NCBI GenBank assembly: GCA_021234155.1
Contig: JAJEKV010000103.1
Coordinates: forward strand, 2,542,001-2,606,000
DNA from: Isoetes taiwanensis
Lineage: Eukaryota > Streptophyta > Lycopodiopsida > Isoetales > Isoetaceae
Length of the DNA stretch: 64,000 bases
Direction of reading: 5' to 3'
In this document: positions 28,870-62,656 of the stretch, piece by piece
How the letters are laid out: each line of letters starts with the position of its first letter
How positions within the stretch are numbered: the first letter of the stretch is position 1
Notes under the pieces: generated by a model
What the model was told of the DNA's origin: nothing
Databases searched by the model: none
Seen by the model: the letters and a program-made list of their open reading frames with translations, nothing else
Program-made: the position numbers and the translations under genes

Positions 28870-29112
28870 TTTTTTTTAACATATGCATCATCTCTTTTAA
28901 CATATGCATCATTTTGATCATGTCTGCATCATTTTTATCATGTCTTATATCATATCATTTGCAAAAATATCATGACTTGTGAACCATGATTATTCTCTTT
29001 CATACCTTATGGCAACCATTGAGTGGCAGAGCTGATTTCAGCCCTCGTGTACTTTTTCACGCATGGAACGTGTCTGAAGAGATTGTAAGGTTGTTTGTCA
29101 AACAAGAGAAAC
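28870..29112 (+). pseudogene. Globulin copy 2, intron 2 and exon 3 fragment
   Basis: Intron 2 sequence (AACATATGCATCATC..., 28878) is followed at 29010 by exon 3 coding sequence equivalent to PLSGRA-FSPRVL-HAWNVSEE, without exons 1-2 and with substitutions. At about 29112, inside the codons after REKQ, it is interrupted by copia sequence. The missing rest (exon 5 tail and 3' UTR) reappears at 59235. It is therefore the front of a globulin duplicate split by about 30 kb of insertions. Confidence 0.8.
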
Positions 29113-30256
29113 AAAGAGAGTTGAAATCCTTCCAGCTTTGAAAGCTAGTTGAGATCTAATTTTTAGTCATTGAGGTGAATAAGAAACTAGCAACTGTAAT
29201 CATCAATGAATAAGGGGCCACATAGGTCTGGATGTACAAATTCAAGTTGCTCTTGTTTGATTGTAAGGTTGTTGTCGAACAAGAGAAACAGAGAGAGTTG
29301 AAATCCTTCCAGCTTTGAAAGCTAGTTGAGACCTAATTTTTAGTCATTGAGGTGAATAAGAAACTAACAACAACTTCTATGTTCCTAATTAAAACACTAG
29401 ATGAAAACAAACTATAATCATCAATGAATAATGGGCCAACTAGGTCTGGATGTACAAATTCAAGTACATCTTTTGCTCTTGTTTTTTACATCAAAAATGA
29501 CAGCCTATTTATTTTCCCAAGTATGCATCCTTCACCCATGAATTCGTCAGCTTTTAGATCATTGCAACTTATCCAGCCTTTCTTAGCTAAGTATTTCAAC
29601 TTGTTACAATGAGTATGCGCCAGCCTGTTGTGCCAAAGTTCAAATTCAGGAATGTTTACTGTGTTGATACTGTTACACACCAAGTTATCCATTTGAAATA
29701 GGTTTCCAACGCGCTTTGCATGAAATTTTAATTCACTGCCAAGATAGATATTACGTGCCCTTGAGTCAAAATTGACTCTATATCCTAAATCCACAAGCTG
29801 ACTGACAGACATGAGATTTTTTATTATTATAGATACACATAGGACATTCTCAATATCTACAATATTTCCTCTCATTTCTAATTATTGTAGGTACACATAG
29901 GACATTCTCAATATCTACAATATTTCCTTTTAGATCCATGAGCTACAGCATGCCTCTCCTTTCAATTCTTGAAGTTCACCTTTTCCAATCTCAATTCGTC
30001 TAGAGTGAGAGGATGCCAGGTTCTTTAGCAGATCAGTAGATTGAACTACTGATCTTTCACCTCCACTTTCAATTATAAGAGGATCAATTTTATTAGCATT
30101 CAAATTTTTATCAATGATGGCTAACATATGACTTACTTCATCATTAGATTTGTCCTTTTCCTCTTGTTCCTCTTGTTCCTTTTGGATGATGTTGTGCTCT
30201 AGTCTTAGAATTTTGTATATAGTACTATTTAAGGACCCTTTAGTATTGAATTGCAA
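29113..30256 (-). mobile_element. Ty1/copia fragment: protease end, GAG-pre-integrase, integrase start
   Basis: Minus strand. GNIVDIENVLC and KNLMSVSQLVDLGYRV mark the end of the copia protease region. FELWHNRLAHTHCNKLKYL is the pre-integrase zinc module and GCILGKINRLSF leads to the integrase start. The frame 29930-30256 (IIESGGERS...RIEIGKGELQEL) lies just 5' of it. The catalytic protease Asp and most of the integrase are missing. About 185 bp at 29092-29265 is duplicated at 29268-29486. This block recurs at 30690, 31790, 33440, 34500/40709 and 59870. Confidence 0.8.
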
Positions 30257-30689
30257 ATCCTTGCAAATTTAATGGTTATATCATAAGTTTTGGCTAGACT
30301 TGCAGTTTGCGTGATTGTAGTAAGAACACTTGCCTTTTTACTTAGAAATAATATTTTAGCATCTTTAAACATATGCATCCAAGTTGGATGCATTATACTT
30401 TGAACATAATTTGTCCATTCTACTCATGTGATATATTTGATGTAAGAACCTAATGCCAATTTTGAGATGTACAAAAAGTTCATCTTTTTTTACATCAAAA
30501 TGGATGGTTCATTTCCCTTTTGACTTGACATAGATTAGCATAGATGATGGAAATGACAAATGTGCCATAGATAAATATGGCCAAATAGCTACTATAATCA
30601 CATATTTTCTTATGGGACAACTCCCCTTTCTATCTATTTGAAAAAAGATGTTGTTTTAAAAATCTTATGATAATGCAAATTTAGGAACA

Positions 30690-31245
30690 ATTGGTCATTC
30701 CATTTGAAAAGGTTTCCAACACGCTTTGACATGAGATTTTTTATTATTGTAGGTACACATAGGATATTCTCAATATCTACAATATTTCCTCTCATTTCTA
30801 ATTATTGTAGGCACACATAGGACATTCTCAATATCTACAATATTTCCTTTTAGATCCATGAGCTACAACATGCCTCTCCTTTCAATTCTTGAAGTTCACC
30901 TTTTCCAATCTCAATTCGTCTAGAGTGAGAGGATGCCAGGTTCTTTAGCAGATCAGTAGATTGAACTACTGATCTTTCACCTCCACTTTCAATTATAAGA
31001 GGATCAATTTTATTAGCATTCAAATTTTTATCAATGATGGCTAACGTATGACTTACTTCATCATCTTCTTCATCATTAGATTTGTCCTTTTCCTCTTGTT
31101 CCCTAGTAACATGGGCTCCTGTCCTCTCATATTGGCTTTGCTCATGGTGTAAAACAATGAGTCGCTGGGGTATTTCATTGGGCAAATATATTTGTTTTTT
31201 ACTTCCCTTAGTATTGATAAGAATAGGCTTCGCTTTCATTAACAC
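30690..31245 (-). mobile_element. Ty1/copia fragment, gag end to protease region
   Basis: A 131-codon minus-strand frame (30850-31245: PNEIPQRLIVLHHEQSQYE, HVTREQEEKDKSNDEEDDE, then the RIEIGKGELQEL block) is the segment preceding the copia protease domain. Downstream protease sequence (IENVLC) is duplicated around 30740-30850. No catalytic motif remains. Confidence 0.7.
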
Positions 31246-31475
31246 CTGGCCACACCCGAGAGCACCGGTTCAAACATGGCCAATATTGGTCCAGTATTGG
31301 CGACCTTAAAAATCCATTGCCTCGAGGTCATGGGTTCATGGACGACCAACCGGTCTTGTGGTAGAGATCTTAAACCAGCCATATATACCATATAATCACA
31401 TGATATGATGATCATGATATGATGACGAACAAGGTGACATGCTTCAATAAAAAATAAATAAATAAATAAATACAT
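31240..31475. repeat. Dispersed spacer repeat, SINE-like, with A-rich tail
   Basis: Starts ACACCTGGCCACACC, contains two GGTTCAA/GGGTTCA words resembling B boxes, and ends in an AATAAAAAATAAATAAATA tail. Copies lie at 32330-32620, 33960-34190, 57333-57602 and 60850-61066, always between the copia block and GlyRS exon a or a break. A degenerate tRNA-derived SINE is possible; a clear A box is not seen. Confidence 0.45.
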
Positions 31476-31725
31476 GGCCAATGAAATGTCTCATTATGCA
31501 GCAGATCAGGCGGGATGCTGAAATTGAATACTCACATGGATGGATTGAATGTGTTGGCTTAGCACATAGATTAGTATATGACTTGAAAGCGCATATTGTG
31601 AGTGTTATTATAAGCTTTAGTGAGTATTATTATTTTTCAATATTGAGTTTGGTCCTCTGACAGGATGCTAGTAAGGTGGGCTTGGTGGTTCATGAAAAAC
31701 ATTTTGAACCGAAGGACGTAGAGGT
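31472..31725 (+). pseudogene. Glycyl-tRNA synthetase fragment, copy A (two exons)
   Basis: Exon a (31472-31597) encodes MANEMSHYAADQ and, after a 1-base frameshift, DAEIEYSHGWIECVGLADR and DLKAH. Exon b (31664-31725) encodes DASKVGLVVHEKHFEPKD. A short intron with GTGAGT donor and ACAG acceptor separates them. These are characteristic of the cytosolic eukaryotic class II GlyRS catalytic core (GW-ECVG-ADR and HEK-EP). Retention of the intron means the piece was copied as DNA, not as mRNA. No downstream exons are present in this copy. Confidence 0.8.
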
Positions 31726-31789
31726 GTTGTTTTTTCAGTTGGTCCTCTGCAGTGGTCATTGCAATTCTGACACTCAATTTCTGCAGTGG

Positions 31790-32330
31790 TCATTCCATTT
31801 GAAATAGGTTTCCAACACGCTTTGCATGAAATTTTAATTCACTGCCAAGATAGATATTACATGCCCTTTGACTCTATATCCTAAATCCACAAGCTGACTG
31901 ACAAAAATTAGATTTTTTATTATTGTAGGTACACATAGCTATAATGTTTCCTTTTAGATCCATGAGCTACAACATGCCTCTCCTTTCAATTTCTTGAAGT
32001 TCAGCTTTTTCAATCCGAATTCCTCTAGAGTGAGAGGATGCCTGGTTCTTTAGCAGATCAGTAGATTGAACTATTGATCTTTCACCTCCACTATCAACTA
32101 CAAGAGGATCAATTTTATTAGCATTCAAATTTTTATCAATGATGGCTAACGTATGACTTACTTCATCATTAGATTTGTTCTTGTCCTCTTGTTCCCTAGT
32201 AACATGGGCTCGAGTCCTCTAATATTGGCTTTGTTCAGGGTGTAAAACAATTAGTCGTTGGGATATTTCATTGGGCAGACATATTTGTTTCTTACTTTCC
32301 CTAGTATTGATAAGAATAGCTTCGCTTCCA
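31790..32330 (-). mobile_element. Ty1/copia fragment, further copy
   Basis: Minus-strand match to the copia blocks at 30690-31245 and 60280-60850, with more divergence and an ~80-bp deletion relative to them (31905-31945). The closely related copy is interrupted across 34500-34622, 40709-41160 and 57333 onward. No open frame of note. Confidence 0.7.
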
Positions 32331-32619
32331 TTAACACCTGGCCACACCTGAGGTCAGGGGTTCAAACATGGCCAACATTCCAGTATTGGGGACCTTAAAA
32401 TTCCATTGCCTCGAGGGCATGGGTTCAAGTACGACCAATTGATATTGTGTTAGAGACCTTAAACCAGCCATATATACTATATAATCACTTGCAAAGCAGC
32501 TTTTAGTATATTGAGCCTAGGTAGTGGATTGGCTTCCAGGTGACATGTGTAATGTGATGTACAATGTAATCATGATATGATGACGAACAAAATGACACCC
32601 TTCAATAAAAAATAAATAT

Positions 32620-32956
32620 AACAAGGTGCTGCGCACGTAGGGTTGCCATCCACGGCCGGAGGATGAAGTGGCTTAAATCATAGTTCAAATTCATGTTTTC
32701 ACAATCAATCAAAAATAGAATACTTGATACCATGACTTTATACTTGAAGATGCCATCATAATCAAATAATTGCACCCCTACTATTGGTATTACACTGCAA
32801 CTTCTAGACCAACTCTAGTGTCCCTACCAATTCTCTGCACATCAATTTTCTAACACGTTATCCTAAGATACAAATGGCAATAAGTGTTTTTGCTCCAAAT
32901 AGTGAACCCCAATCTAATTCATAGATTGAAGCATGAACAAAGCATTCATATGTGTT
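32620..32956. mobile_element. Truncated element with AACAAGGTGCTGCGC end
   Basis: AACAAGGTGCTGCGCAC plus an imperfect hairpin and ~85 bp similar to 8070-8155 begin right after the AATAAATAT tail of the spacer repeat. The GGGGCAACCC end is missing, and at 32957 sequence returns to the copia-flank duplication. The body (32720-32950) holds nothing recognisable. Confidence 0.5.
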
Positions 32957-33439: not shown

Positions 33440-33960
33440 GTACACAAGCTGACTGACAGACATGAGATTTTTTATTATTGTAGGTACACATAGGATATTC
33501 TCAATATCTACAATATTTCCTCTCATTTCTAATTATTGTAGGTACACATAGGACATTCTCAATATCTACAATATTTCCTTTTAGATCCATGAGCTACAAC
33601 ATGCCTCTCCTTTCAATTCTTGAAGTTCACCTTTTCCAATCTCAATTCGTCTAGAGTGAGAGGATGCCAGGTTCTTTAGCAGATCAGTAGATTGAACTAC
33701 TGATCTTTCACCTCCACTTTCAATTATAAGAGGATCAATTTTATTAGCATTCAAATTTTTATCAATGATGGCTAACATATGACTTACTTCATCATTAGAT
33801 TTGTCCTTTTCCTCTTGTTCCCTAGTAACATGGGCTCATGTCCTCTCATATTGGCTTTGCTCATGGTGTAAAACAATGAGTCGCTGGGGTATTTCATTGG
33901 GCAAATATATTTCTTTTTTACTTCCCTTAGTATTGATAAGAATAGGCTTCGCTTTCATTA
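33440..33960 (-). mobile_element. Ty1/copia fragment in the second 1.6 kb duplicate
   Basis: Near-identical to 30740-31245 (same IDKNLNANKIDPLIIESG block at 33581-33778), with a 9-bp deletion in the Asp/Glu run. Degenerate and non-functional. Confidence 0.75.
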
Positions 33961-34190
33961 ACACCTGGCCACACCCGAGAGCACCGGTTCAAACATGGCC
34001 AATATTGGTCCAGTATTGGCGACCTTAAAAATCCATTGCCTCGAGGTCATGGGTTCATGGACGACCAACCGGTCTTGTGGTAGAGATCTTAAACCAGCCA
34101 TATATACCATATAATCACATGATATGATGATCATGATATGATGACGAACAAGATGACATCCTTCAATAAAAAATAAATAAATAAATAAAT

Positions 34191-34445
34191 ACATGGCCAA
34201 TGAAATGGCTCATTATGCAGCAGATCAGGCGGGATGCTGAAATTGAATACTCACATGGATGGATTGAATGTGTTGGCTTAGCAGATAGATTAGTATATGA
34301 CTTGAAAGCGCATATTGTGAGTGTTATTATAAGCTTTAGTGAGTATTATTATTTTTCAATATTGAGTTTGGTCCTCTGACAGGATGCTAGTAAGGTGGGC
34401 TTGGTGGTTCGTGAAAAACATTTTGAACCGAAGGACATAGAGGTG
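34191..34445 (+). pseudogene. Glycyl-tRNA synthetase fragment, copy B (two exons)
   Basis: Same two exons and intron as copy A: exon a 34191-34316 with MANEMAHYAADQ, the same frameshift and HGWIECVGLADR, and exon b from 34383 with GLVVREKHFEPKD. The shared frameshift (CAGGCGG in place of the expected Cys-Trp codons) shows that copies A and B derive from an already broken piece. Part of the 1.6 kb duplication. Confidence 0.8.
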
Positions 34446-34749
34446 TTGTTTTTTCAGTTGGTCCTCTGCAGTGGTCATTGCAATTCTGACACTCAGTGGT
34501 CATTCCATTTGAAATAGGTTTCCAACACGCTTTGCATGAAATTTTAATTCACTGCCAAGATAGATATTACATGCCCTTTGACTCTATATCCTAAATCCAC
34601 AAGCTGACTGACAAAAATTAGATTTTTGGGTTGCCCCTAGGGGGGCAAACCCTTGTTTATGTGGGTTTTTGGCATATCCTAGGTATATGCTAGAATATCC
34701 CTAGGATATGCTGGTGACTGCTACAAACCTATTCTTCCCTGTAAATTCT

Positions 34750-37600
34750 CGGTCACCTGCGTTGTGGATCAGGGATGCTTGAACCGGCTAACTGGGAAGA
34801 CAGACGAAGCTCCAATCTTGCATTCCTTATTTCTGTGTGTGCCACAGGCTTTTGGTGTTACATGGTACAGCTCCCTAAATATTGCAGTTTTGGAGCTTTG
34901 AGCTCCTCATTTTGTCGTTTTGTTAAATATGAAATGCTGAATGCCTGCACCCTAAAACTAAGCAAAGGCCTTTGTGTGGCTGAATCGTGATTGGATTCTT
35001 GAAATTTACGGTAAACGCCTTTGTTGACTCGGAGAACATTGGCTCCGTGGTCGTCACCATGCCTTAGGAATTTGCAGGGGTTTGACTAGAACTATGCCAC
35101 GCAGGGTTTCTCCATCTTCGCTGAAAATTCCACGATGCATTACCAAGTGTCCATCATTCTTTGTAGCTTCTGAGAAGCTAACTATGCCTTCTATATCCAC
35201 GATGGCTGCATGCAGGGAAATTGGAGCTAGCGAGCTGACTGCTGGCCCTAGAAAGATTCTATGAAGTAGTCTTGCACGATTCAGGTGCCTGTTTTCCATT
35301 TTCTCATTCTGATGCATTAGAAAAAAATTGTATACAATGAGCCCTGTTGATCTGAGGAATTGGAGAAGTCTGGCTGTTCATTTTTGGGGCAAATCCAAGA
35401 ACAAATTTTAACGCATAGAATGAAGCCATGGAACTTCATGCAAGGTGAGACTTTTGCACTCATTGTTGCTTCTTTCCAGTTGTTTTGCTAACTCTAATAT
35501 AAACAGGATGAACTTGGATCAGCATTCCAGGATATTTACATTGTTGTTTCCGAATTGGTGGTTTACTCTTGAAGAGCTTCTCTTTTTACTAGACCGGATA
35601 TTTTCCAATTTTGCAAACCATTTGACGACTCAAACCTTGCTACTGCTGTGGAAATGGGGTGAGAACAGCCTTTTGCCTCTTAGCTTCAAGCACGACAACA
35701 CACAGATGGCAACATCCCTTTCCTTGGTTCTTCTTTGTAAGTTCATATTTGATATTTCCTTTTATTTGCTTCATTCGCTTCATAATTGATCTTCCCTTCA
35801 ATCCCTTTTCACTTGGTTCATTCGCAGTGCACATGTCTGCAACATATCGCTTGGACATCCTGGGAAACATGTACATAGTTCCCACATGCATAATAGGCAT
35901 TATGGCAAAGCTTTGGAGTTCAGCTATGCATTCTAGCTATGTAGCCTTGGAGTTCAGTGATGCATTCTGGCTATGGCGGCTTCTGGGGCTTTGCAATTTG
36001 GCAGTATGGGAGGCAGTGTTACTTTCTTCTCCTTGGCAGAGTATATGAATAGTTTGATATGAGGGATATGAGTGTTACTATACCAGGAGCAAGCGAAGTG
36101 ACCACAACTTCTGGAGAAGAGGATTTTCCAGCATTCTTTTTCTTCCGCATGATGTCATTCTGCAAATGACGTGTATGTGTCAGAAACTAGACAGTTATCA
36201 ACATTGCTAGCATCGTCGTTAGGGAAATAAATGGGCGGCATAGTTGATATTGCTGCTAGCATTGGAATATCAGAAACACGCGCTCAGCTTCTTCATGACA
36301 TGTTGGCATCGATTTTTTCAAATGAAGAGTTAAATGCAGATCTTTTGGCAAAAGCACCAGTAGATGAAATAGAGTCTGTTGGCAAACATGTTGATGATAT
36401 TCTTCTTTTTTCTTATCTGTTAATCTATTGGAAAGTTCCTCCATGGCCGCATAAAGATGTTGCAGCTGTGGCAGTTTGAACTGTAGCCTGTCATCTAAAT
36501 TTGTTGAAGCCCTCTTCATTCTACAGTAAATACTACATAATGCCAGTCTATGAAATGAAGGAACCATTTTTGTTAACTTGGTCTACAGACCAAATTATTG
36601 AGTCATTCTTATTTCCATATGTTGTGTGCTGAACCTTAGGTTCCTATTTCCTTTTTTACTTGGCTATGCAACAAGGCCGATCTGCATTCCCTCCACTATT
36701 TCGGTTGGGTTGTTTTGGTGTAAAAAACAGGAATATCCGGAGACATGTACCCGTTGCAAGTTTTTGATGCCGTTTAATGGAATCGCATTGGTACAGCTTG
36801 CCAATGCATAAAGATGATCTTTGAGGTTACGCAAGAAGTTTATTGTCGAGAAGTGCTTTTTTTGTATTACCCAACTGTGTGCCAAAAAGAGATTCAATAA
36901 GGAGAAACCGAGATACTATGGCTCGAGAAGATGGTGAAAAATTAAGCAAGTGTTGGTCAAATTTGATTCGTGCTTAAAAACAACTTATTCTTCAAATGAC
37001 TTGTGCTTTGTCCCAATTTCATATCTCCGAGATTTCTAGAAAGGTAAGTTTAAGCAACAGCAGTTGTTGGTTCAAGTGCAAAGATGGATTTTAACTTTCA
37101 GCTTCTGGAATTTTAGCAAGCATATGCTATCAATACGCTGATGTTAGAGTTCTTGGAAATATTGGATCTTCATACAAAAAAACTATGACAAACTGCTTAG
37201 GCATGCGGCTCATAACATAACACAGTTGCAATGGTTCTAATTTTGGCTTTGGGTGTTTTGCATATTTCACACAGGGCACTTGATTTGCCTCCAAAGTTTC
37301 TGTGTTGGTACCTTGGAAAATACAACACTCTGTGAACATCTTACTTGCATGTGTTTTCTTGTCGAGTTGAATACATAACCGAGTAATTAATGGTAAGAAA
37401 GCATGTCCATAGTGGCTTCTATCTTGCTTTATCTTCTATTCGAAATTGGTTATTTTATTTGGTGGCATGAGAAGAAAAGTTCAACTTATATTATTTTATG
37501 AGTGAATTGTTGAGCTATTGTTGCTTATAGAAGCACGCAAATTTCTCATATTTTTCACGGTATGGTGCCATGCTCTATGATGTCGATGATGGATCGCAAG
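34750..37600. other. Unassigned interior of the 6.1 kb element
   Basis: Short frames on both strands (for example 35054-35317 minus, 35659-36048 plus, 36231-36479 plus) have no motifs I recognise. Intron-like T-rich stretches and possible splice sites suggest captured genic DNA, but no family can be named. Confidence 0.35.
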
Positions 37601-37619
37601 GATTTCTATAAAGTAGGCC

Positions 37620-39319
37620 ATGACATGCGTGCTTATAGCTAGCTTCAACGTGTCTTACATACGAATAAAGGTTTCTCTAGAACTTTTTCCAGCTAGTGAA
37701 AACCTTGGGAAGAATTTGACAACAGAGGAGAATAGGGAAAAGCTTACTGCCTCCAGCATTGTAACAGGGAATGAACAATTGGAAGTATCAAGAAAAAAAA
37801 GGCTTCAAAATGGCTTCGTTGATGTGCTCAAAATTGCCTTGTTGCTCGAACGTTGTTCTAGTACCAAGGCTTTGTCAGAAGGTCAACAGATTCATTGCTA
37901 CATAATGCAAAATGGATTGGATCAGCATGTGGTCCTATCTAATTTGCTTATACAAATGTATGGCAAGTGTGAAGATTTACAGAATGCAAGGGTTGTATTT
38001 GACAAGATGTGCATTCGGAACGTTTATTCTTGGTTTATCTTAATTGCAGTTTATGTCCAACATAGGCACCTTGAAGAAGCACTGGTGCTTTTTTATCAGA
38101 TGCCCGTGCGGGACATAGTAACTTGGAACACAATGATTGGCATATGGACAGCAAGGCAACTTAGAGATGGCCATTAAGTTTTTCAAGCAAATGCCTCAGC
38201 AGAATGTGGTATCCTGGAATGCCATCATTATGGCTCTCATTAAACAAGGGCATATCAAGGAAGTTGATCAGTGGTTCGAACAAATGCCTCAACGTAATGT
38301 AATTTCATGGAACACTATGATTGCTAGTCACGCAGAACATGGGCAACTTGAGGACGCCTTGAAACTCCTTGCAAGAATGTCTGCGAGAAATGCCGTTACA
38401 TGGAATTCTATAATTGGAGGTTTTATAAAGAGGGCAATGAGGCTTGTATACTGTTTCAACGAATGCTACAACGTGATGTAGCGTCCTACAATGCTATGAT
38501 CTCAGCCTTTGTTGGGGCTGCCAACTTAATGAGGCAGTATATCTCTTTAAACAAATGCCTTATAAGGATGTCATTTTATGGACTGATGATCAGTAACAAC
38601 ATTCTCTGCTGGCATGTCGTTTTAATAGTGGATGTGGTAATGTTGATTATTAACATTGCTATCAAACATTAAGGAAATTTCATGCTGCAAATAGCTATTT
38701 GCTTTGAGTTCAAAATATCTGGTCTGCAATACTCTGGCTTAGAATGGCCAAATATTTGCTCAAAAACTAGATTATAATTCCATCTAGAGGAGGTTTGCTT
38801 TGAAGATGTGCAAAGTGTTCAACCAAATGCAGGAAAGGAATATTATATCATGTTCAACCATGATTGCAGCACACATAGAGCATGGTTATGGAAAAGAGAC
38901 ATTTGGCATTTATCAACAAATGCAGTTAGCAAAGGAGAGTCCAAACACCATTATCTACATAGTTCTTCTCAACGGTTGTGCCAGCTTTAGTTTTTTTAAC
39001 AGAAGGCAAATTAATTCATGCACATGCTATATAGTATGGGTTTGAATCAGCAACTATCGTTGGGAATGCCCTCATCAATATGCATGGGAAGACTGATAAT
39101 CTGAATGATGCATCTGAGATTTTCAACCGGATGGATGAGAAAGATGTCATATCTTGGAATACAATTGTTGCAATGTATTCCCATTATGGTTTTTTCAAAG
39201 AGGCCCACTATCTTTTTCAACAGACGCAGTTGCATGGCTTCAAACGAGATGGGGCCATGTTCATCAGCATTCTAAATGCATGCACTACCAGAGCTTCAAT
39301 GAAAGCTGCAAGAGTTTAA
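37620..39319 (+). pseudogene. Pentatricopeptide repeat (PPR, PLS-like) pseudogene
   Basis: A broken reading frame with classic PPR repeats: GQQIHCYIMQNGLDQHVVLS, LLIQMYGKCEDLQNARVVFD, RDIVTWNTMI, QNVVSWNAII, RNVISWNTMIASHAEHGQLE, RNAVTWNSIIGGF, RDVASYNAMISAF, and later RNIISCSTMIAAHIEHGYGK and KDVISWNTIVAMYSHYGFFK. PPR proteins bind organellar RNA; the alternating V-x-W-N-T/A-M/I pattern is typical of land-plant PLS editing factors. Frame changes occur at about 38140, 38430 and 38515. The stretch 38675-38790 has lost recognisable repeats, and the frame after 39045 shifts again. The C-terminal E/DYW part is absent. It lies wholly inside the 6.1 kb element, so it is most likely captured cargo. 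Confidence 0.85.
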
Positions 39320-40660: not shown

Positions 40661-40708
40661 ACACTCTCGGGCCACCGAAGGGCAACCCTCCGTGCGCAGC
40701 ACCTTGTT

Positions 40709-41160
40709 TATTATTGTAGGTACACATAGGACATTCTCAATATCTATAATGTTTCCTTTTAGATCCATGAGCTACAACATGCCTCTCCTTTCAATTTCTT
40801 GAAGTTCAGCTTTTTCAATCCGAATTCCTCTAGAGTGAGAGGATGCCTGATTCTTTAGCAGATCAGTAGATTGAACTATTAATCTTTCACCTCCACTATC
40901 AACTACAAGAGGATCAATTTTATTAGCATTCAAATTTTTATCAATGATGGCTAACGTATGACTTACTTCATCGTTAGATTTGTTCTTGTCCTCTTGTTCC
41001 CTAGTAACATGGGCTCGAGTCCTCTAATATTGGCTTTGTTCAGAGTGTAAAACAATTAGTCGCTGGGATATTTCATTGGGCAGACATATTTGTTTCTTAC
41101 TTTCCCTAGTATTGATAAGAATAGCTTCGCTTCCATTAACACCTGGCCACACCTGAGGTC
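40709..41160 (-). mobile_element. Continuation of the interrupted copia fragment and start of the spacer repeat
   Basis: Picks up the copia sequence broken at 34622 (TTATTATTGTAGGTACAC...) and runs to CACACCTGAGGTC, where the LTR element inserts. The ORF-like gag/protease piece here is non-functional. It resumes after 57332. Confidence 0.75.
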
Positions 41161-41487
41161 TGTTAGAGCCTGAACTCTAACCTTGCAAGAAGGATGAAAA
41201 ACCCAACAATCCAAGCTCAATCTATCAGAACAAGGCAATGCACAACACAAAGAATCATCATCTCCATAGCTAGATCAAGCAAAACACTCTCTCAATACAT
41301 CGTCTCTCTCTTCTCCTCTCTCTGCTCAGACAATACAGTCATCATAATGCCCACAATGCGTACGTGCAAATATCCTGCACGCGTGCATGCGCGTATATCA
41401 CTCTATATACGGTATATGATGAGTGTGGTGAGTGGTGATGAGTGTGGTGAGTGGTGACCAATGTGGTGAGTGGTGATCACCCCAACA
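41161..41487. repeat. LTR, left copy
   Basis: TGTTAGAGCC...ACCCCAACA, 327 bp, with several GTGGTGAGT words near the right edge. It is followed at 41488 by GTGGCGACCACAGTGGGA, which looks like a primer-binding-site context in the plus direction although the genes are on the minus strand. Confidence 0.85.
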
Positions 41488-41881
41488 GTGGCGACCACAG
41501 TGGGAAAATGTGCCACTCCGTGGCGGAGAACCCACAACAAAACACACTAATATGGTCCTTGGGACATGTCCCCAAATGACCCATTTACACCCTCCTCAAA
41601 TCCAAATGACTAATACAAACAAACTGGTCCAAAATGACAGTGACGAAACAGAGCCTCTGTAACTGTGGCCAACTTTGAAAGCTGATATCTTGAGTTCCAG
41701 ACCTCCGTTTGACCTGCACCATAGCTCGTTGGATTCGTATCGCCGAAATACATCTTTTGATGTAGGATAGATTATGTATTATGGAACTGTCACCACCTGT
41801 TTTTACAGAAAAACGACCCGCTATAACCCAAAAGTTCTCCACAAATTCTCTGTAATTGGAGCTATGCCACATCTGAATCCC

Positions 41882-50063: not shown

Positions 50064-50273
50064 GCCATGCTCATTTTTGGGTGTGTTATATTTATGTCCA
50101 CAATATAAATATATCAACCATTTGTACATGAAAACCTGTCCATTTCTTATCTTTGCCATGACTAAAACCATTTTAGTGTTTATGCAATTCAACTTTCTTG
50201 TGTTCAATTCTAATCAACTTACACTTAACAAATTTTTATAAGATTTACGGAATGTACAACGGATGTACATAAG

Positions 50274-50313
50274 ATGTACATAAGATGTACATCGTTGTAC
50301 ATCTTATGTACAT
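50274..50313. terminator. Perfect 18-bp hairpin between convergent genes
   Basis: ATGTACATAAGATGTACA (50274-50291), loop TCGT, then its exact reverse complement (50296-50313). It lies between the TGA of the plus-strand ORF (50063) and the 3' end of the minus-strand transposase (about 50400). It could be a bidirectional 3' processing or transposase-binding structure; both are inference. Confidence 0.55.
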
Positions 50314-50399
50314 TGATGTACATAATGCATACGAAGTAGTCCAGTTCTTGAGTTCTTATAACAAAGTATTACAATATTTCGGGAAAGTACTCTGAATCG

Positions 50400-53300: not shown

Positions 53301-53530
53301 AAAAAGCTGTCATCTTGCAACAAACGATCACAAAAACTAATCTTTGATCCGACGGCGTTTGCCAAGAATCGAGGATGCAATCCACCGAACTGTCAACACG
53401 CTTCTTTATTTGTTTTGTGGCATAACACCGCCAATGTCGGCATATTTGCGCTTTAGAACCATCACTTCCATTGGAATTCTCACCCTCCATGAACAGATTG
53501 AAATTGATTTGTATTTCTTGTAGATTCAAT
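50400..53530 (-). pseudogene. Decayed DDE-type transposase, DFxENY / WSDG-SQFK / HGKG family (copy 2)
   Basis: Minus-strand blocks in order. An N-terminal region (53529 down) has SKAQICRHWRCYATKQIKKR and a helical segment, then FWLDNTKVSPKVRDVMKRR (52955), matching FWKQNSRVSPCKKDVV of copy 1. The Cys block is NTCCCVKHEQADLYKKAF (52137). In the core, ENYTLKPRDEVQSEHW (51585, the preceding DF being split by an indel) is followed by KHDTHFVQHGFKLHLGWL (51454), YVWSDGCASQFKSAM (51370) and a frameshifted FFGSGHGKGTHDGEAG near 51250. The HGKG-DG Asp, WSDG Asp and DF Asp are candidate catalytic residues (inference). It is inactive as it stands. Confidence 0.72.
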
Positions 53531-53924
53531 TGGCATGTGTTTGCTTCTGGAATTCCTTCGGTGTTCGTCCTGTGAAAGGGGGGAATTTCGGAAAGGGAGG
53601 GACGGATCCATTCAATTTGGTTCGGTGGTTCGGTGGTTAACCAAGAATTTCGGGGGGAATGTCAGGGATGATCTTGCAATCATTGCATATCTGACACAAA
53701 ACGACAAACCATAGTATCTTGATGTACATCTAAAATGTACCCCAAAAAAGCACAAATTCGTCCTTCAATTCAGTACGATGTACGTACACCCTTTCATGCT
53801 TTTATCCCTGAATTCTCTTAATAAAGATATCAAATCGCGTTCCTCCTCTTGAGTAAGATCTCCTCCAATAGTAACCAATTCTTCTTGATTTCCTTGAGAA
53901 ATATTGATGTTCTTGACTGAATGT

Positions 53925-54110
53925 GGTGACTGTAATGAAGGTGGTGAGTGTGGTGACGAATGTGGTGAATGTGGTGATTGTGTAATATGGTGACAGTGAT
54001 GAATGTGGTGCGTGTGATGACTGTGGTGACTGTAATGGATGTGGTGGATGTGATGATTGTGATGAATTTGGTGCATGTGGTGACTGTAATGACTGTGGTG
54101 AATATGGACG
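53925..54110. repeat. GTGGTGANTG-type microsatellite inside the Ty3 polyprotein
   Basis: Imperfect repeats of a 9-12 bp word (GTGGTGA-TGT) expand in the gag-pol interior between protease and RT, giving His/Pro/Ser-rich translation on the minus strand. The LTRs carry similar GTGGTGAGT words (for example 41420-41475), an unexplained resemblance. Confidence 0.7.
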
Positions 54111-54477
54111 GATCTGATTTACCTCATCCTCCAGAATGTTGGCATGGCACCAAGCTGCTTGTCCTTGTGTAGCAGGCTGATTTCTGTTTACCCCATCCAT
54201 GCTTGATGTCAAAATCAGCATCTCTACTTGATCTTGATCAATTTCTTGCTGAAATAAACTCTCCCCAATGGGTCTTTGAATGGACTCTTCCTGCATGTTC
54301 ACAAGAGTCTCTTGTAACTCAGCTTCACCAATACTTTCCAGTCTTTGGAGATACTTATCTGCAACTTGCTGCTGTAAAATGACATATTTCTGAAATTTGG
54401 GTACCTTTTAACCACTTGTACAAAGTCTTATCTTCCCTGTCACCCACTTCCAAGACATGAAAACAACTAAGACCTTG

Positions 54478-55284
54478 CTACCCTGACACCATAGCATTCT
54501 CTTTGCTGATTTCTAACTGCAGGCTGCTCAAAGAAGGATTGCAAAGAAAGGTACCTTTTGCTGATTTCAGAGGATGATCTATAGTAACCTTGTGTTCCCC
54601 TTGAAAGATATTCATTTCACGCTTCCTCCATGAAGTCTCAGCTTGTACGGCATCTAACCATGTACGACTCAGCAACAAAGTATAAGTTTCCGCATGCACA
54701 CTCTCTGGAAATTTCAAAACCATGAAATCCAAGATTGCTTCCACCTCATAAACCTTGCATAAAACATTTCTTATGACTCCCATAGGCTGCACCTTCATTT
54801 GATTGAATGCTTTGAGCATCATAGTTGTCGGTTCCATCATTTTCAATCCAACTTGAAGCATTATGTGGTAAGGCATTACATTCACTCCACTGCCGGTATC
54901 CATGTTGGCCTCTTTGATTAGATACCCATTAATACTCACATCACAAAGAAATGGCCCTGGATCCTTGGATTGCCGGGCTGGTGGCTCCATTCTACTCTTA
55001 TTGGTATCATTTGAGATGATTTGTTGGACTGAAATTTCTGATTTTGTTCTTCCCCCTAACTCTTGCAACAAATTTGGAGAATAATGCATCAATTGCTCAA
55101 GAGTAAGTGTAACTTTAGTGGCCAAAACTTGGCTGATCACATCATCTTCATTTTGAATTTCCTCCTCCACCATAGGAGGCATCACTATGGGCTGATTTTC
55201 TTCTATAGACTGAAACTGTTCTGTGGGCAACACATTGAATTGCACCTTCTTAGGTGCTGACACCTTCAAAGCTTGTTCCTTCAA
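54478..55284 (-). CDS. Ty3 aspartic protease segment
   Basis: A 268-codon minus-strand frame. The retropepsin active site is ANMDTGSGVNVMPYHI (residues ~130-145), with the flap/core continuing through GVIRNVLCKVYEVEAILDFM. The N-terminal third is a linker rich in Gln/Glu (about residues 25-60). The stop at 54478 lies before the His-rich microsatellite and the DNA element. Catalytic DTGS is intact. It is part of a polyprotein with gag upstream but in a different frame. Confidence 0.85.
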   Translation of the reverse strand: MKEQALKVSAPKKVQFNVLPTEQFQSIEENQPIVMPPMVEEEIQNEDDVISQVLATKVTLTLEQLMHYSPNLLQELGGRTKSEISVQQIISNDTNKSRMEPPARQSKDPGPFLCDVSINGYLIKEANMDTGSGVNVMPYHIMLQVGLKMMEPTTMMLKAFNQMKVQPMGVIRNVLCKVYEVEAILDFMVLKFPESVHAETYTLLLSRTWLDAVQAETSWRKREMNIFQGEHKVTIDHPLKSAKGTFLCNPSLSSLQLEISKENAMVSG

Positions 55285-55552
55285 AGCCTTTGGAAAAGAG
55301 GTCTTAGTATTCTCCTCAAGAATTGGCTACTCTTGGTTCTTGAACCACCTTTTGTGATCTTGTAACTGCATTTACTTCTCCAATCTCTTCTTCTTGCTGA
55401 AATGGGTCATGCTCCACCTCAACAAATCCACAATTTACTACTGATTTTGCCTTCTCTTGCTTCTTAAGCTCCTCAATAAGAGCCTTAACTTGAGGATTAT
55501 CAATGTACTTTGCATCTTGAATCGCACATCATTATTAGGAAGAGGTCTTGAT

Positions 55553-56774
55553 TCAAACACTTGCTGCTTTGGTGGATACTTGTTGGTTGCCCATTCTCGG
55601 TTTCCCATGGATTTTCCAACAAGTAGTCTCATCATGCTTGAATTTATCACATAACTTGCAATATAAATGAGCCTTACTTGGATACCATCCCTGTTTTGGC
55701 TGCACCATTGGTGTGGAACCCATTGGAACTTGTTGGGCAATTGGAGCTTGTGGCATCATTGGAACTTGTGGTATGATAGGTGCTGCTTGCATTGGTTGAA
55801 TAGGAATAGATGGTGCTTGTTGCATAACAGCAAATACCGGATTGGCCCTCTCAAAGAATCTCTTCTCCCTACATTCTTGATCATTATGGCCCTTGATTTG
55901 GCATCTTGAGCAGAATTTCAGCAATCTACATGTAGTATCAGAATGCCTAATAGACCCACAATATTCACAAGTAATAAACTGCACCTCCCTTGGCTTCTCA
56001 CCAATTGTAAGCTTAGAAATCTTGGCTGCAATATCCTCTGTTTTATGCTCTGGAGTAGCAACTTCATGAATGTATCCCAACTTATCTTCAGCCTTGAGAG
56101 CATACTTTTGTGCCTCTAGTAATGTTGTAGGCTGTTTAGCCTTCACCTTATGAGCAATAGCTCGTTTCAGCCCCTTTACATACCATTGAATATCCATTTC
56201 ATCATTCCTTGCAATCTTCCAATGAAATATACCTCTGATTATACTCTCTAATTGATTCATCTTCCTTTTGTGTGAAATTGGTCCACCTTTCCATAGTCTT
56301 ATCCTTACCATGAACTTCTTGATAATTAGCAATGAAAGCTTCCTTTAATTCCTGATATGTCATGGTATCTGGCTGGGTTTGTGCCCATTCCTCCACTGAA
56401 TCTTGCAAAGAACTATGAAACCAAAGCAAGTAATCAGCAGCCGGTAACTTACATTGCTGGCAATACCTCTCAAACTTCACAATATGCTTCAAAGGATCCC
56501 GATCCACCAGATCATCAAACTTTGGAATCCCCATTGTCTGTAAACCCCATACCATAGGTGGTAATACAGCTATCTCTGCCTCTTCTTGGGTTTCTTGAAA
56601 TTGGAAAAACGAAATTGAATCTCCCTTCAATTTGAAAAACGAAATTGGATTACCGTCTAGATCGGTAAATAGAATCAAAACCTCCTGGATCTGAGAACTA
56701 GACCCCAGATCTGCTCCCAAATCTGAAAACGAAATTGAATCTTGATGCAATTTTGAGCCCAAAAATTGACTCAC
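55553..56774 (-). CDS. Ty3 gag: retrotransposon gag domain plus three CCHC knuckles (two overlapping frames)
   Basis: The first frame (56774-56202) has the retrotransposon gag core: GIPKFDDLVDRDPLKHIVKF, DYLLWFHSSLQDSVEEWAQ, TMTYQELKEAFIANYQEV, ESIREYNQRYISL. The second (56332-55553) continues with WYVKGLKRAIAHKV and three zinc knuckles: CEYCGSIRHSDTTC, CSRCQIKGHNDQEC and CKLCDKFKHDETTC (all C-x2-C-x4-H-x4-C). A frameshift at about 56215-56330 splits gag. It binds element RNA and forms the particle (family knowledge). Three knuckles is more than the usual one or two. Confidence 0.85.
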
Positions 56775-56999
56775 CGGTCTCCTTCTTGTTAGATAGAGCT
56801 TGGTGGTATCTCCTTCTTACTTCTCTTGGGCATAAAACTATGCTCCCCTTGTCAAATTCTACCCCACAAATCAATTACGGCAAAATCCCCTTCACCCAAG
56901 AAATTGCTCCTTTCTCAATGGTGCCGTTCTTTACCGACGATCACCAATACCAATGGTAACAACTCCTTTTTCAATGGAAATTCTTGCCGATCAATGGTC

Positions 57000-57332
57000 T
57001 GTCGAGCCACCGTGGTCAACTCTAACCTTGCAAGAAGGATGAAAAACCCAACAATCCAAGCTGAATCTATCAGAACAAGGCAATGCACAACACAAAGAAT
57101 CATCATCTCCATAGCTAGATCAAGCAAAACACTCTCTCAATACACCGTCTCTCTCTTCTCCTCTCTCTGCTCAGACAATACAGTCATCATAATGCCCACA
57201 ATGCGTACGTGCAAATATCCTGCACGCGTGCATGCGCGTATATCACTCTATATACGGTATATGACGAGTGTGGTGAGTGGTGATGAGTGTGGTGAGTGGT
57301 GACCAATGTGGTGAGTGGTGATCACCCCAACA
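57000..57332. repeat. LTR, right copy
   Basis: 333 bp, matching the left LTR from ACTCTAACCTTGC to CCCCAACA with three substitutions seen. The first ~25 bp differ (TGTCGAGCCACCG... instead of TGTTAGAGCC...). Flanked on the right by AGGTC. Between gag and this LTR (56775-56999) is the untranslated leader. Confidence 0.85.
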
Positions 57333-57602
57333 AGGTCACGGGTTCAAACATGGCCAACATTCCAGTATTGGGGACCTTAAAAATCCATTGCCTCGAGGTC
57401 ATGGGTTCAAGTACGACCAATTGGTATTGTGTTAGAGACCTTAAACCAGCCATATGTACTATATAATCACTTGCAAAGCAACTTTTAGTATATTGAGCCT
57501 AGGTAGTGGATTGGCTCCCAGGTGACATGTGTAATGTGATGTACAATGTAATCATGATATGATGACGAACAAAATGACATCTTTCAATAAAAAATAAATA
57601 TA
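57333..57602. repeat. Spacer repeat resumed after the LTR element
   Basis: Continues the SINE-like spacer broken at 41160, matching 32355-32620 closely, and ends in AAATAAATATAACAAGGTGCTG, the same junction as at 32620. So this block and 31790-32630 are duplicates that predate the LTR insertion. Confidence 0.8.
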
Positions 57603-58290
57603 ACAAGGTGCTGTGTAGGAGTAATGGTTGTGTAGAAAAAAATTTGGGCCCTTCGGGCCCTTAAAAAAAATATTGTTGATATTAAATAGAAGAAAAATTC
57701 AATGGAATAAACATGAGAAAAGTGCAATAGAACAAACATGTAATGAATAGCAACTTTACAATATGGGACTTGAACCCAAGGTATCCTTGCAAAACCATAG
57801 TGCCTATACCTTGCAAAACTATACCAATCTATATCAATCTATATGTTTGCCAAATAAAGATGAATGACCGTTGTGCACAAAGTGGACAATTGTTGAAGCT
57901 GTGCTACATATTCGTCGAATAGAATGGGTGTTATGACACAAAGATAGAGGACGAATAGAAATGATAAACCTAATAATGAAGTGCACCTGTATTTTTTATT
58001 CTAGCATTGCAAAATGCTTTTCCATTCCATCTTGGTAAAATGCAAGTCTGTCTTTGCACTTAGTGACCATCCCAGAGCATGCATTGTTGCAGGAGATTCA
58101 AGATTGCACATGACAAGCAAATAACCAAATAGCCGAGCTGGTATTGCAGCAACTTACTGAGAGAAATAACGCCAAGCAATGATTTACATTGCAAATAGGC
58201 ATGCATTAGACATCCCAAGTTGGTTCTTTGCAAAGCATTTTTGCCCCCTGTTTTCCACCCCATTTAGCTTGATGGATTGGTGCACCAGAT
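57603..58290. other. Unassigned sequence with GGGCCCTTCGGGCCC hairpin
   Basis: After a truncated AACAAGGTGCTG end there is a GGGCCC-TTC-GGGCCC hairpin (57645-57660). The rest shows no gene. Confidence 0.45.
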
Positions 58291-58295
58291 CGGGG

Positions 58296-58971
58296 GGATG
58301 CTGAAATTGAATACTCACATGGATGGATTGAATGTGTTGGCTTAGCAGATAGATTAGTATATGACTTGAAAGCACATACTGTGAGTGTTGATTATGAGCT
58401 TTAGTGAGTATTATTATTTTTCAATATTGAGTTGGTCCTCTAACAGGATGCTAGTAAGATGGGCTTGGTGGCTCATGAAAAATATTTTGACCAAAGGATA
58501 CAGAGGTATTGTTTTTTCAATTGGTTCTCTTAAAGTGGTCATTCTATTTCTGACACCCAAAATAAGATTTTGAGGGAAATATCGCTAGTGTCAAACAAGA
58601 AAGAGCTTGTGGTTTTTTTTTTTTCAAAAAGAATCAGAAAACTAGGAAGCTTTGTAGGTTATCTTTTGAAAGGAAATATTTATGCAGATTTATATATTTG
58701 CTAATGTCTTCGATTTTCTTCAGGCTTTGACAGAAGAAGTAGCTTTAGAAATGAAGGCAAAGCTTGAGTCTGATGGCCAAGCACCATTAACATTGTGTGG
58801 CACTAGAAAAATCGTTATTATCACTAAGAGATGAGCATCTCCATCTCCAAGCAGACCAACAAGGTTCATCAAAGGACCTTTACCCCAGTAGTTATTGAAC
58901 CATCATTTGGCATAGCTCAGATTTTATATATTGCCTATTTTGTGCATAGTTTCTATCTCTTCGATTGCTAG
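58296..58971 (+). pseudogene. Glycyl-tRNA synthetase fragment, copy C (three exons)
   Basis: Exon a (58296-58380: DAEIEYSHGWIECVGLADR, 5' truncated), exon b (58447 on: DASKMGLVAHEKYF) and exon c (58724-58971: ALTEEVALEMKAKLESDGQA, then after a frameshift HQRTFTPVVIEPSFGIAQIL). EPSFGI is the motif 3-adjacent signature of class II GlyRS. Introns of GT-AG type are kept. A stop (TGA at about 58835) and truncation make it non-functional. It lies between the spacer/copia material and globulin exon 5 of copy 2. Confidence 0.85.
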
Positions 58972-59229
58972 ATCAATGCATGAATTTAATCTAGACTTAA
59001 AGCACATTCAATATAACAAGACACAATTTATTATAGAGCAATGATTCAACTTACAGATATTAAGAATCTATATAGATCATTGAGCTTATTGTAGCAAAAT
59101 TGCACTATAGCTCGGGTATTGACCCGAATACTATAGAGTTTAACAGCTGAGATTCAACCCTAAACTCCAAATCTGTGGACAATTAAAATATGTATGCTTA
59201 AATGGTTTTCAAAAGAATACTCAAAAGAA

Positions 59230-59620
59230 TATTTATGCAGAGGGAATGGCAGCAGCGTGATGTGAAGTAGAGAGGGTTTAGCTTGTGTGCTCTTCTAATA
59301 GGGGCTCAAGAACATGAGCGCTCTAATAGTATATATGTAGTTGTGCTGTTTTGTTGGGGCTCATTCTAGAATGTGAGCTCCTTATGCAGGTTTTGTTCTA
59401 CTTGTATCAGTAATAAAGGGCACATTTTCTTGAGTTATACTAGATATTATTGCCTTGATTTTGAACCCCAGAATGTGAGCTCCTTATGTTGGTTTTGTTC
59501 TACTTGTATCAGTAATAAAGGGTACATTTTCTTGAATTATACTAGATATTGTTGCCTTGATTTTAAGCTCTTACATTTTCTTCATTTGCATCAGATTAAT
59601 GTCGGATGTTTGTTGCCTTA
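59230..59620 (+). pseudogene. Globulin copy 2, exon 5 tail and 3' UTR
   Basis: GCAGAGGGAATGGCAGCAGC and GTGATGTGAAGTAGAGAGGG match the last codons, stop and 3' UTR of the intact gene (28450-28500), followed by two of the ~101-bp AATAAA repeats. It is the right half of copy 2, whose left half is at 28870-29112. Confidence 0.8.
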
Positions 59621-59649
59621 TGGCTTGGAGGAACTAGTTGAAATCCTTT

Positions 59650-59870
59650 TTTTAGCATATGCATCATCTCTTTTAACATATGCATCATTTTTATCATGTC
59701 TTATATCATATCATTTGCAAAAATATCATGACTTGTGAACCATGATTATTCTCTTTCATACCTTATGGCAACCATTGAGTGGCAGAGCTGGTTTCAGTCC
59801 CTTGTGTGTCTTTCTCACGTATGGAATGTGTCTAAAGATATTGTAAGGCTGTTGTGAAATAAGAGAAGCA
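59650..59870 (+). pseudogene. Globulin copy 3, intron 2 and exon 3 fragment
   Basis: Same structure as 28870-29112: intron 2 words, then exon 3 from GCAACCATTGAGTGGCAGAG (59767), with a frameshift in the FSP-type region, then copia sequence at about 59870. It shares the copia breakpoint with copy 2, so the insertion preceded duplication. Confidence 0.8.
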
Positions 59871-60850
59871 AAGAGAATTGAAATCCTTCCAGCTTTGAAA
59901 GCTAGTTGAGACCTAATTTTTAGTCATTGAGGTGAATAAAAAACTAGCAAAAACAACTTCTATGTTCCTAGTTAAAACACTAGTGAAAACAAACTATAGT
60001 CATCAATGAATAATAGGCCACATAGGTCTGGATGTACAAATTCAAGTACATTTTTTGCTCTTATTTTTTACGTCAAAAATGACAGCCTATTTATTTTTCC
60101 AAGTATGCATCCTTCACCCATGATTTCTTCAGCTTTTAGATCATTGCAACTTATCCAGCCTTTCTTAGCTAAGTATTTCAAGTTGTTACAATGAGTATGG
60201 GCCAGCCTGTTGTGCTAAAGTTCAAATTCAGGAATGTTTACTGTGTTGATACTGTTACACACCAAGTTATCCATTTGAAATAGGTTTCCAACACGTTTTG
60301 CATGAAATTTTACATCACTACCAAGATAGATATTACATGCCCTTGAGTCAAAATTGACTCTGTATTCTAGATCCACAACCTGACTGACAGAAATGAGATT
60401 TTTAATTATTGTAGGTACACATAGGACATTCTCAATATCTACAATGTTTCCTTTTAGATCCATGAGCTACAGCATGCCTCTCCTTTCAATTTCTTGAAGT
60501 TCACCTTTTCCAATCTCAATTCCTCTAGAGTGAGAGGATGTCAGGTTCTTTAGCAGATCAGTAGATTGAACTACTAATCTTTCACCTCGACTATCAACTA
60601 CAAGAGGATCAATTTTATTAGCATACAATTTTTTACAATGAGGGCTAACGTATGACCTACTTCATCATCTTCTTCATCATTAGATTTTCCCTTTTCCTCT
60701 TGTTCCCTAGTAACATGGGCTCCCGTCTTCTCATATTGGCTTTGCTCAGGGTGTAAAAAAATGAGTCGCTGGGGTGTTTCATTGGGCAGACATATTTGTT
60801 TCTTACTTCCCTTAGTATTAATAAGGATAGGCTTCGCTTCCATTAACACC
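59870..60850 (-). mobile_element. Ty1/copia fragment in globulin copy 3
   Basis: Minus strand, order integrase start, pre-integrase, protease end, gag end: HPDLVGPL-type integrase start (about 60030), GNIVDIENVLCVPTIIKNL (60450), and the PNETPQRLIFLHPEQSQYE block (60598-60849). Protease catalytic residues and RT are absent. It gives the undisturbed layout of the block that is scrambled in copy 2. Confidence 0.8.
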
Positions 60851-61066
60851 TGGCCACACCCGCGGTCACAAGTTCAAACATGGCCAACATTGGTCCAGTA
60901 TTGGGGACCTTAAAAATCCATTGCCTCGAGGCCATGCGTTCTAGTACGACCAACTGGTAGTAGAGACCTTAAACCACCCATATGTACTATATAATCACAT
61001 GATATGATGATCATGATATGATGACGAACAAAATGACATCCTTCAATAAAAAATAAATAAAATAAT

Positions 61067-61965
61067 ACGTGGCCAATGAAATGGCTCACTATGCAGCAGA
61101 TCGGGCGGGATGCTGAAATTGAATACTCACATGGATGGATTGAATGTGTTGGCTTAGCAGATAGATTAGTATATGACTTGAAAGCATACATTGTGTGTGT
61201 TGATTATAAGCTTTAGTGAGTATTATTATTTTTCAATATTGAGTTGGTCCTCTGACGGGATGCTAGTAAAGTGGGCTTGGTGGCTCATGAAAAATATTTT
61301 GAACCGAAGGGTGGTCATTGCATTTATGACACTTAAAATAACATTTTGAGGGAAATATCGCTAGCGTCAAACAAGAAAGAACTTGTGGTTTTTTTTTCAA
61401 AAAGAATCAGAAAACTAGGAAGCTTTGTAGGTCACTTTTTGAAAGAAAATATTCATTCAGATTTATATATTTTGATGATGTCTTCGATTTTCTTCAGGCT
61501 TTGATAGAAGTAGTAGCTTTAGAAATGAAGGCAAAGCTTGAGTCTGATGGCCAACCACCATTAACATTGTGTGGCACTAGAAAAATCATTATTATCACTA
61601 TGATCATCTCCATCTCCAAGCGGACCAACAAGGTTCATCAAAGGACCTTTACCCCATTAGTTATTGAACCATCATTCCATTCCCATCTTTAGTTGCCCCT
61701 ATCAATTACAGAAAGAAAGTTTGGAGGTCTTGGCAAGAAAGATCTCCCTCCATCCCTCCCTCGCAGACACTGCAAATAAAATAGATATCATAGGGACAAC
61801 AATAGGCAAGAGATGTGCCGAACTGATGAGCTTGGTGTGCCATTCGCAAAAATGGTGGATTTTGTATCTGAAGAATCCGTTACAATAAGTGAGAGAGACA
61901 CAGGGGCACAAGGCCATGTTCTAGTTAAAGAGGTTACATTAGGTCATCTCAAATGGCACAGAAGG
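61067..61965 (+). pseudogene. Glycyl-tRNA synthetase fragment, copy D (four exons, into the anticodon-binding domain)
   Basis: Exon a (61067-61191: ANEMAHYAADR, frameshift, HGWIECVGLADR), exon b (61258-61310; acceptor AG mutated), exon c (61498-61680: VALEMKAKLESDGQPPL, HQRTFTPLVIEPSF) and exon d (61712-61965: HPSLADTANKIDIIGTTIGK then in another frame DELGVPFAKMVDFVSEES and VTISERDTGAQ). Exon d is the C-terminal anticodon-binding domain of eukaryotic GlyRS (GTTIGKR, TDELGVPFA, RD). It is the most complete copy and defines what was captured: the catalytic core end plus the anticodon-binding domain, with introns. It cannot encode an enzyme. Confidence 0.88.
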
Positions 61966-62500
61966 ACATTGAGATATTCCCTGCTGTAGATTAGATGCAA
62001 TAGAGGGAATGCCAACAGCGTGATGCGAAGTAGAGAGGGTTTAGCTTGTGTGCTTTTTTAAAAAGGGCTCAAGAACATGAGCACTCTAATAGTATATATG
62101 TAGTTGTGCTGTTTTGTTGGGGCTCATTCCAGAATGTGAGCTCCTTATGCAGGTTTTGTTCTACTTGTATCAGTAATAAAGGGCACATTTTTCTTGAGTT
62201 ATACTAGATATTGTTGCCTTGATTTTGAACCCCAGAATGTGAGCTCCTTATGCTGGTTTTGTTCTACTTGTATCAGTAATAAAGGGCACATTTTTCTTGA
62301 GTTATACTAGATATTGTTGCCTTGATTTTGAACCCCAGAATGTGAGCTCCTTATGCTGGTTTTGTTCTACTTGTATCAGTAATAAAGGGCACATTTTCTT
62401 GAATTATACTAGATATTGTTGCCTTGATTTTGAGCTCTTACATTTTCTTCATTTGCACCAGATTAATAGTGACGTTTGTTGCCTTATGGCTTGGAGGAAC
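61966..62500 (+). pseudogene. Globulin copy 3, exon 5 tail and 3' UTR with three repeat units
   Basis: GAGATATTCCCTGCTGTAG, GGGAATGCCAACAGCGTGAT and the stop GTAG match exon 5 (28425-28489). Three ~101-bp AATAAA units follow (62131-62440), against two in the other copies. It joins directly to GlyRS exon d. Confidence 0.8.
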
Positions 62501-62514
62501 TAGTTGAGATACTT

Positions 62515-62656
62515 TTTTTAACATATGCATCATGTCTTTTAACATATGCATCATTTTTATCATTATCATATCATTTGCAAAAATATCATGACTTGTGAAC
62601 CATGACTATTCTCTTTCATACCTTACGGCACCCATTGAGTAGCAGAGCTGGTTTCA
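62515..62656 (+). pseudogene. Globulin copy 4, intron 2 and truncated exon 3
   Basis: Same intron 2 / exon 3 start as copies 2 and 3 (GCACCCATTGAGTAGCAGAG, 62630) but cut after GCTGGTTTCA at 62656 by a Ty3 RT sequence. It confirms a tandem series of truncated units. Confidence 0.75.

Follow-up and report, generated by a model that had tools for sequence, protein, structure and literature searches.

A repeated composite of globulin, copia and GlyRS fragments beside a storage globulin gene of Isoetes taiwanensis

How did parts of a storage globulin gene, of a copia element and of a gene for an aminoacyl-tRNA synthetase (GlyRS) come to lie next to each other in a series of repeated units, and can such units encode a joined protein? 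These questions are raised by a locus of Isoetes taiwanensis, whose assembly comprises 1658.30 Mb in 204 scaffolds and 909 contigs and is based on nanopore and Illumina data (PMC8566536). The window, i.e. the whole stretch of 64,000 nucleotides analysed here, corresponds to C912:2542001-2606000 of the 1,658,258,908-base assembly. Based on sequence comparisons, we regard it as highly probable that the units constitute a non-coding pseudogene composite, which was put together by end-joining and then amplified by unequal crossing-over.

The globulin genes and the composition of the units

The window contains an intact storage globulin gene, named G1, with the following features:

26163-28489, plus strand: G1, intact 11S-type storage globulin gene with five exons, coding for a bicupin
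26163-26463, 26886-27073, 27291-27611, 27881-28098 and 28294-28489, plus strand: exons of G1, open spliced frame
28490-28924, plus strand: 3'UTR region of G1 with two tandem repeats of about 100 bp, found in every unit

The frame of G1 is open over 407 aa and the introns are of the GT-AG type. The Pfam family Cupin_1 matches the protein in two stretches (E=4e-46), and among solved structures 11S globulins such as prunin, arachin and 11S chains gave the best matches (E=9e-38). Having two cupin domains and 11S globulins as its nearest relatives, G1 is of the 11S type and resembles the 11S (legumin-type) seed storage globulins, whereas the repeat units hold only fragments, from which this protein cannot be made.

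A second full-length copy, G0, is inverted and straddles the left border of the window (C912:2539.2-2542.9k). G0 and G1 are arranged head to head with their promoters facing each other (window 1-1618 and 24556-26193, about 25 kb between them), and the identity of these promoters is 98.6%. Exons 1 and 2 of G0 contain no substitution and a one-base insertion in exon 2, which, because substitutions are lacking, may be a sequencing error; indels inside otherwise nearly unchanged exons are present both in G0 and in its counterpart on C930. Decayed arrays of units follow both full-length genes; units inverted with respect to those downstream of G1 (minus array) occupy C912:2529.5-2539.8k immediately to the left of the window. 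Tandem repeats with a period of roughly 455 bp and 85-88% identity were observed at window positions 4600-6371.

The units consist, in this order, of 3'UTR, intron 2 from about nt 71-81, exon 3 nt 8-116, a non-copia spacer U of 135 bp, a copia fragment in antisense, the 3' half of GlyRS, a globulin tail and 3'UTR; identities within the unit matches range from 81 to 95% over 0.3-1.3 kb, which far exceeds chance. A preliminary description of this DNA had given the order intron 2, exon 3, copia (minus), GlyRS, globulin tail and 3'UTR for copies 2 and 3, which is borne out by the sequence matches, and the fourth copy that it saw repeating the start is the beginning of unit 4 at 62537-62656. What had been taken for a spacer in front of GlyRS is the upstream (gag/protease-side) end of that copia fragment. 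Likewise, the positions 29112 and 59870, proposed as copia breakpoints, mark the end of the similarity to exon 3 (nt 116); there the 135-bp spacer follows, and copia begins at 29429 and 60011. The units of the window are composed as follows:

28925-29118, plus strand: start of unit 2, intron 2 (nt 81-168) fused to exon 3 nt 8-116, 54 bp across the splice acceptor deleted
29121-29428: spacer U of unit 2; exon 3 and U are partly duplicated locally, second U copy at 29298-29428
29429-30170, minus strand: copia fragment of unit 2, GAG-pre-integrase and upstream part (PF13976, E=1e-8), antisense to globulin; junction at 29428/29429
30794-31777: sub-copy in unit 2 with copia 30794-31122, GlyRS 31122-31252, SINE-like 31247-31462 and GlyRS 31477-31777
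31794-32621: sub-copy in unit 2 with copia, GlyRS 32215-32344 and SINE-like insert
33443-34627: sub-copy in unit 2 with copia, GlyRS 33841-33971, SINE-like piece, GlyRS 34196-34495 and copia piece 34504-34627
40704-41160: sub-copy in unit 2 with copia 40704-41016, GlyRS 41020-41149 and start of the SINE-like insert
41161-57332, minus strand: Gypsy LTR retrotransposon of 16.2 kb within the SINE-like piece of unit 2, LTRs 99% identical
57334-58956, plus strand: remainder of unit 2, SINE-like 57334-57603 and GlyRS pseudogene 58281-58956
59061-59226, minus strand: filler between GlyRS and globulin at the right-hand end of unit 2, made up of pieces of V and R
59239-59670, plus strand: closing globulin exon 5 end and 3'UTR of unit 2
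59671-59875, plus strand: start of unit 3, intron 2 (nt 71-168) fused to exon 3 nt 8-116, 54-bp deletion as in unit 2
59876-60010: spacer U of unit 3
60011-60726, minus strand: copia fragment of unit 3, from the upstream gag/protease side to GAG-pre-integrase, defined by dispersed copia matches and the exact U junction
60726-61970, plus strand: GlyRS pseudogene fragment of unit 3, starting inside a GlyRS intron, SINE-like insert at 60851-61064
61970-62536, plus strand: closing globulin exon 5 tail and 3'UTR of unit 3
62537-62656, plus strand: start of unit 4, a piece of intron 2 interrupted by a Gypsy fragment with RT at 62639-63124

The structure is most clearly seen in unit 3, whose GlyRS fragment scores slightly below the cutoff of PF03129 (20.2 vs 21 bits). 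Unit 2 is enlarged by internal duplications, as seen from four copia/GlyRS junctions between 30794 and 41157, and its Gypsy element is flanked by a perfect 5-bp target-site duplication (AGGTC at 41156-41160 and 57333-57337). In related units, the sequences V and R of its filler occur on either side of remnants of copia RNase H. Unit 4 continues outside the window, where exon 3 nt 42-116 follows at C912:2612209.

Junctions shared and not shared among the units

The deletion of 54 bp across the exon 3 acceptor was found in every unit that has the intron 2/exon 3 join, including a partial unit on the unlinked contig C1037. The junction of U and copia is exact in copies 2 and 3 (29428/29429 and 60010/60011), and in the copies of both the window and the minus array copia meets GlyRS at about position 3282 of the GlyRS locus, within an intron. 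About 35 dispersed genomic copies of copia match 60011-60727 exclusively; therefore, the ends of the fragment are defined. The SINE-like insert and a nonsense codon (TAA; RLRFH*HLA) recur across units. Most copies have these derived marks in common, namely the 54-bp deletion, the spacer/copia and copia/GlyRS junctions, the SINE-like insert and the TAA stop, and because they are shared, one origin of the left part of the composite, followed by co-duplication, is well supported. The copies lie head to tail and possess common internal junctions, as is characteristic of tandem segmental duplication.

The proposal that the composite arose once and was duplicated as a whole holds for this left part and fails for the right junctions between GlyRS and globulin. 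In unit 3, position 4448 of the GlyRS locus is joined to exon 5; in unit 2, GlyRS ends at 4105 and is followed by copia-derived filler and then by late exon 5; in the minus array, position 4031 is joined to exon 4. Breakpoints were expected to agree within a few bases, but on the right-hand side those of copies 2 and 3 are more than 300 bp apart, and the picture of identical composites needs correction, as the right junctions differ. Judging from the sequences, this variation is due to deletion. In three units of the minus array exon 3 nt 66 directly abuts copia, and in one unit the 3'UTR abuts copia and exon 3 is absent; the missing pieces are taken to have been lost through later deletion. 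The SINE-like insert at 60851-61064 and its copies contain a B-box-like motif (GGTCACAAGTTCAAAC), are located inside a GlyRS exon and have similar short direct repeats at their flanks.

The locus is most simply explained by end-joining and subsequent unequal crossing-over. A duplicate of the storage globulin gene would have been truncated, its 3'UTR abutting intron 2/exon 3 and the acceptor of exon 3 being lost, and would have become attached to a decayed copia element and the 3' half of GlyRS. These joins would have occurred by illegitimate (end-joining) recombination of genomic DNA in and around the copia element. Unequal crossing-over between the repeated 3'UTR/copia/GlyRS stretches would then have amplified and reshuffled the composite, and deletions and Gypsy insertions would have affected the units later. 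We infer these two mechanisms and the order of events; the anatomy of the units, the derived marks that they share, their lost coding capacity and the presence of copies on two contigs are read directly from the DNA. The intact globulin gene(s) apart, the composite is most likely functionless.

The copia context and the source of GlyRS

The copia part belongs to the Ty1/copia type according to PF13976, its dispersed copies and an RNase H match in related units; it is a fragment only, and no LTRs were found at the copia fragments. In the unit on C1037, V (copia RNase H), part of which serves as filler in unit 2, is located to the left of the globulin piece and GAG-pre-integrase to its right; both have equal orientation and follow the copia order. 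In dispersed copia copies, the distance from RNase H to GAG-pre-integrase is 1.7-2.2 kb. Because of RNase H on the left and GAG-pre-integrase on the right, the globulin piece seems to sit inside a broken copia element. This arrangement, with RNase H sequence on the far side of the globulin piece, would be compatible with a greater contribution of copia: A non-autonomous chimera derived from copia could have captured the globulin and GlyRS pieces and spread them by transposition, and a direct repeat of 317 bp (R), which brackets V, globulin and U on the unlinked contig, would be in agreement with this. Such a capture is a live rival, yet weaker than end-joining with subsequent unequal crossing-over, and we judge it unlikely. 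The inspected ends of R show no TG...CA and are not LTR-like, and a search for R further afield gave matches only in this cluster and on C1037; in view of such ends and of the lack of dispersed copies in this search, R is unlikely to be the LTR of a chimeric element. Neither defined termini of a mobile unit nor a target-site duplication was found around the captured pieces. Moreover, the units are mostly tandem with common internal junctions, which fits local duplication better than separate insertions. The search for the composite junctions, as proposed in the preliminary description, located the copia/GlyRS junction in this cluster only, whereas copia is dispersed, which argues against a GlyRS-copia chimera dispersed in the genome.

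A further argument against capture by copia is that introns were retained in GlyRS. Parent GlyRS genes were found at C1054, C907 and C695 with TIGR00389 scores over the cutoff; in the window, TIGR00389 detects only fragments at E~1e-4. The GlyRS pieces of the units are about 81-89% identical to the C1054 parent, uninterrupted over introns. Because the matches cross introns, these pieces are best regarded as genomic copies made at the DNA level, and a retrocopy is ruled out. Other GlyRS matches are located at C952:20597-20601k and 20636-20637k, C908:24312-24314k, C1025:6802k and 7051k, and C930:12612k. Those on C952, C908 and C1025 contain stop codons and look like independent pseudogenes; the parts of them that were read gave no match to the copia/GlyRS junction.

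Assembly, coding capacity and related systems

C930:2698-2790k is collinear with C912:2526-2615k at the sampled places, and the minus-array copies of C912 and C930 form one-to-one pairs of low divergence; for both reasons, the C930 cluster probably represents either the second haplotype or a very recent duplicate, and collinearity rules out an unrelated second cluster. C930:2770001-2790000 and C912:2594303-2615216 are 81.5% identical with 1142 gap openings over 21 kb, compared with 95.6% for neighbouring C930 sequence. This segment has the appearance of long-read sequence that remained unpolished in the assembly; dating should not rely on the plus-array part of C930, which is noisy. The repetitive nature of the region, the unpolished segment and the probably uncollapsed haplotypes might suggest that the units are a nanopore assembly artefact made of mis-joined or collapsed repeats. 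We consider this very improbable, as identical junctions recur despite a divergence of roughly 3-10% between units, two contigs that were assembled separately show a collinear order, and a mis-join would not yield a shared 54-bp deletion and shared nonsense codons.

With respect to coding capacity, the GlyRS fragments contain in-frame stops, frameshifts and the SINE-like insertion, and no unit offers the open catalytic and anticodon-binding domains of a functional GlyRS. The globulin fragments lack exons 1-2, the start codon and the exon 3 splice acceptor; a functional globulin gene has a start, all exons and intact splice sites. Some single-base indels may be nanopore or assembly errors, but the stop common to the units, the insertion and the large deletions are not errors of this kind. 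Because of the stops, the frame changes and the absence of exons 1-2 and of the exon 3 acceptor, the units are read as non-coding pseudogenes in which nothing is joined at the protein level. It is highly unlikely that the inverted arrays give rise to double-stranded or antisense RNA that tunes the neighbouring storage globulin gene or, in trans, the GlyRS genes. Units expressed as a chimeric protein or regulatory RNA are scarcely conceivable, even though they were repeatedly kept beside an intact globulin gene and two inverted arrays could give double-stranded RNA: The absent start codon and splice acceptor and the nonsense codons rule out a fusion gene, GlyRS is frameshifted, copia is antisense, and no frame is conserved across units.

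Joining of fragments and tandem amplification around a plant gene are documented for the maize p1/p2 cluster, where the P1-wr tandem cluster contains a chimeric gene that resulted from end-joining with filler DNA (PMC2686159). Common to both loci are the tandem gene amplification, an end-joined chimera, filler from elsewhere and nested LTR retrotransposons between copies. In maize, the units are mostly intact and the filler of 50 bp is from nearby, whereas in Isoetes the units consist of pseudogene fragments, to which an unlinked GlyRS gene and a copia element contributed hundreds of bases. Plant transposons that capture gene fragments are Pack-MULEs, Helitrons and the LTR element Bs1. There, too, fragments of unrelated host genes lie beside transposon sequence and are multiplied together; the Isoetes units differ in that no terminal structure or target-site duplication was found, in that the copies are mainly local and tandem, and in that the GlyRS introns were kept.

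The joining of a globulin with an aminoacyl-tRNA synthetase had been suggested to be undescribed. Our literature search found no description of a globulin/GlyRS composite; GlyRS is present as a pseudogene fragment, there is no join at the protein level, and the process has already been described. The composite is a well-preserved case of this known process, i.e. ordinary plant genome debris and not a new fusion gene, and it gives no hint of a novel type of gene. It provides a clear record from a lycophyte of unrelated gene fragments that were joined and amplified beside a storage-protein gene, and it constitutes an annotation hazard, as false globulin-GlyRS fusion models could result at this locus. 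Within the window, a PPR-containing stretch (37600-38500) is a dispersed repeat with more than 12 copies of 92-98% identity on many contigs and is apparently a mobile or recently multiplied PPR fragment.
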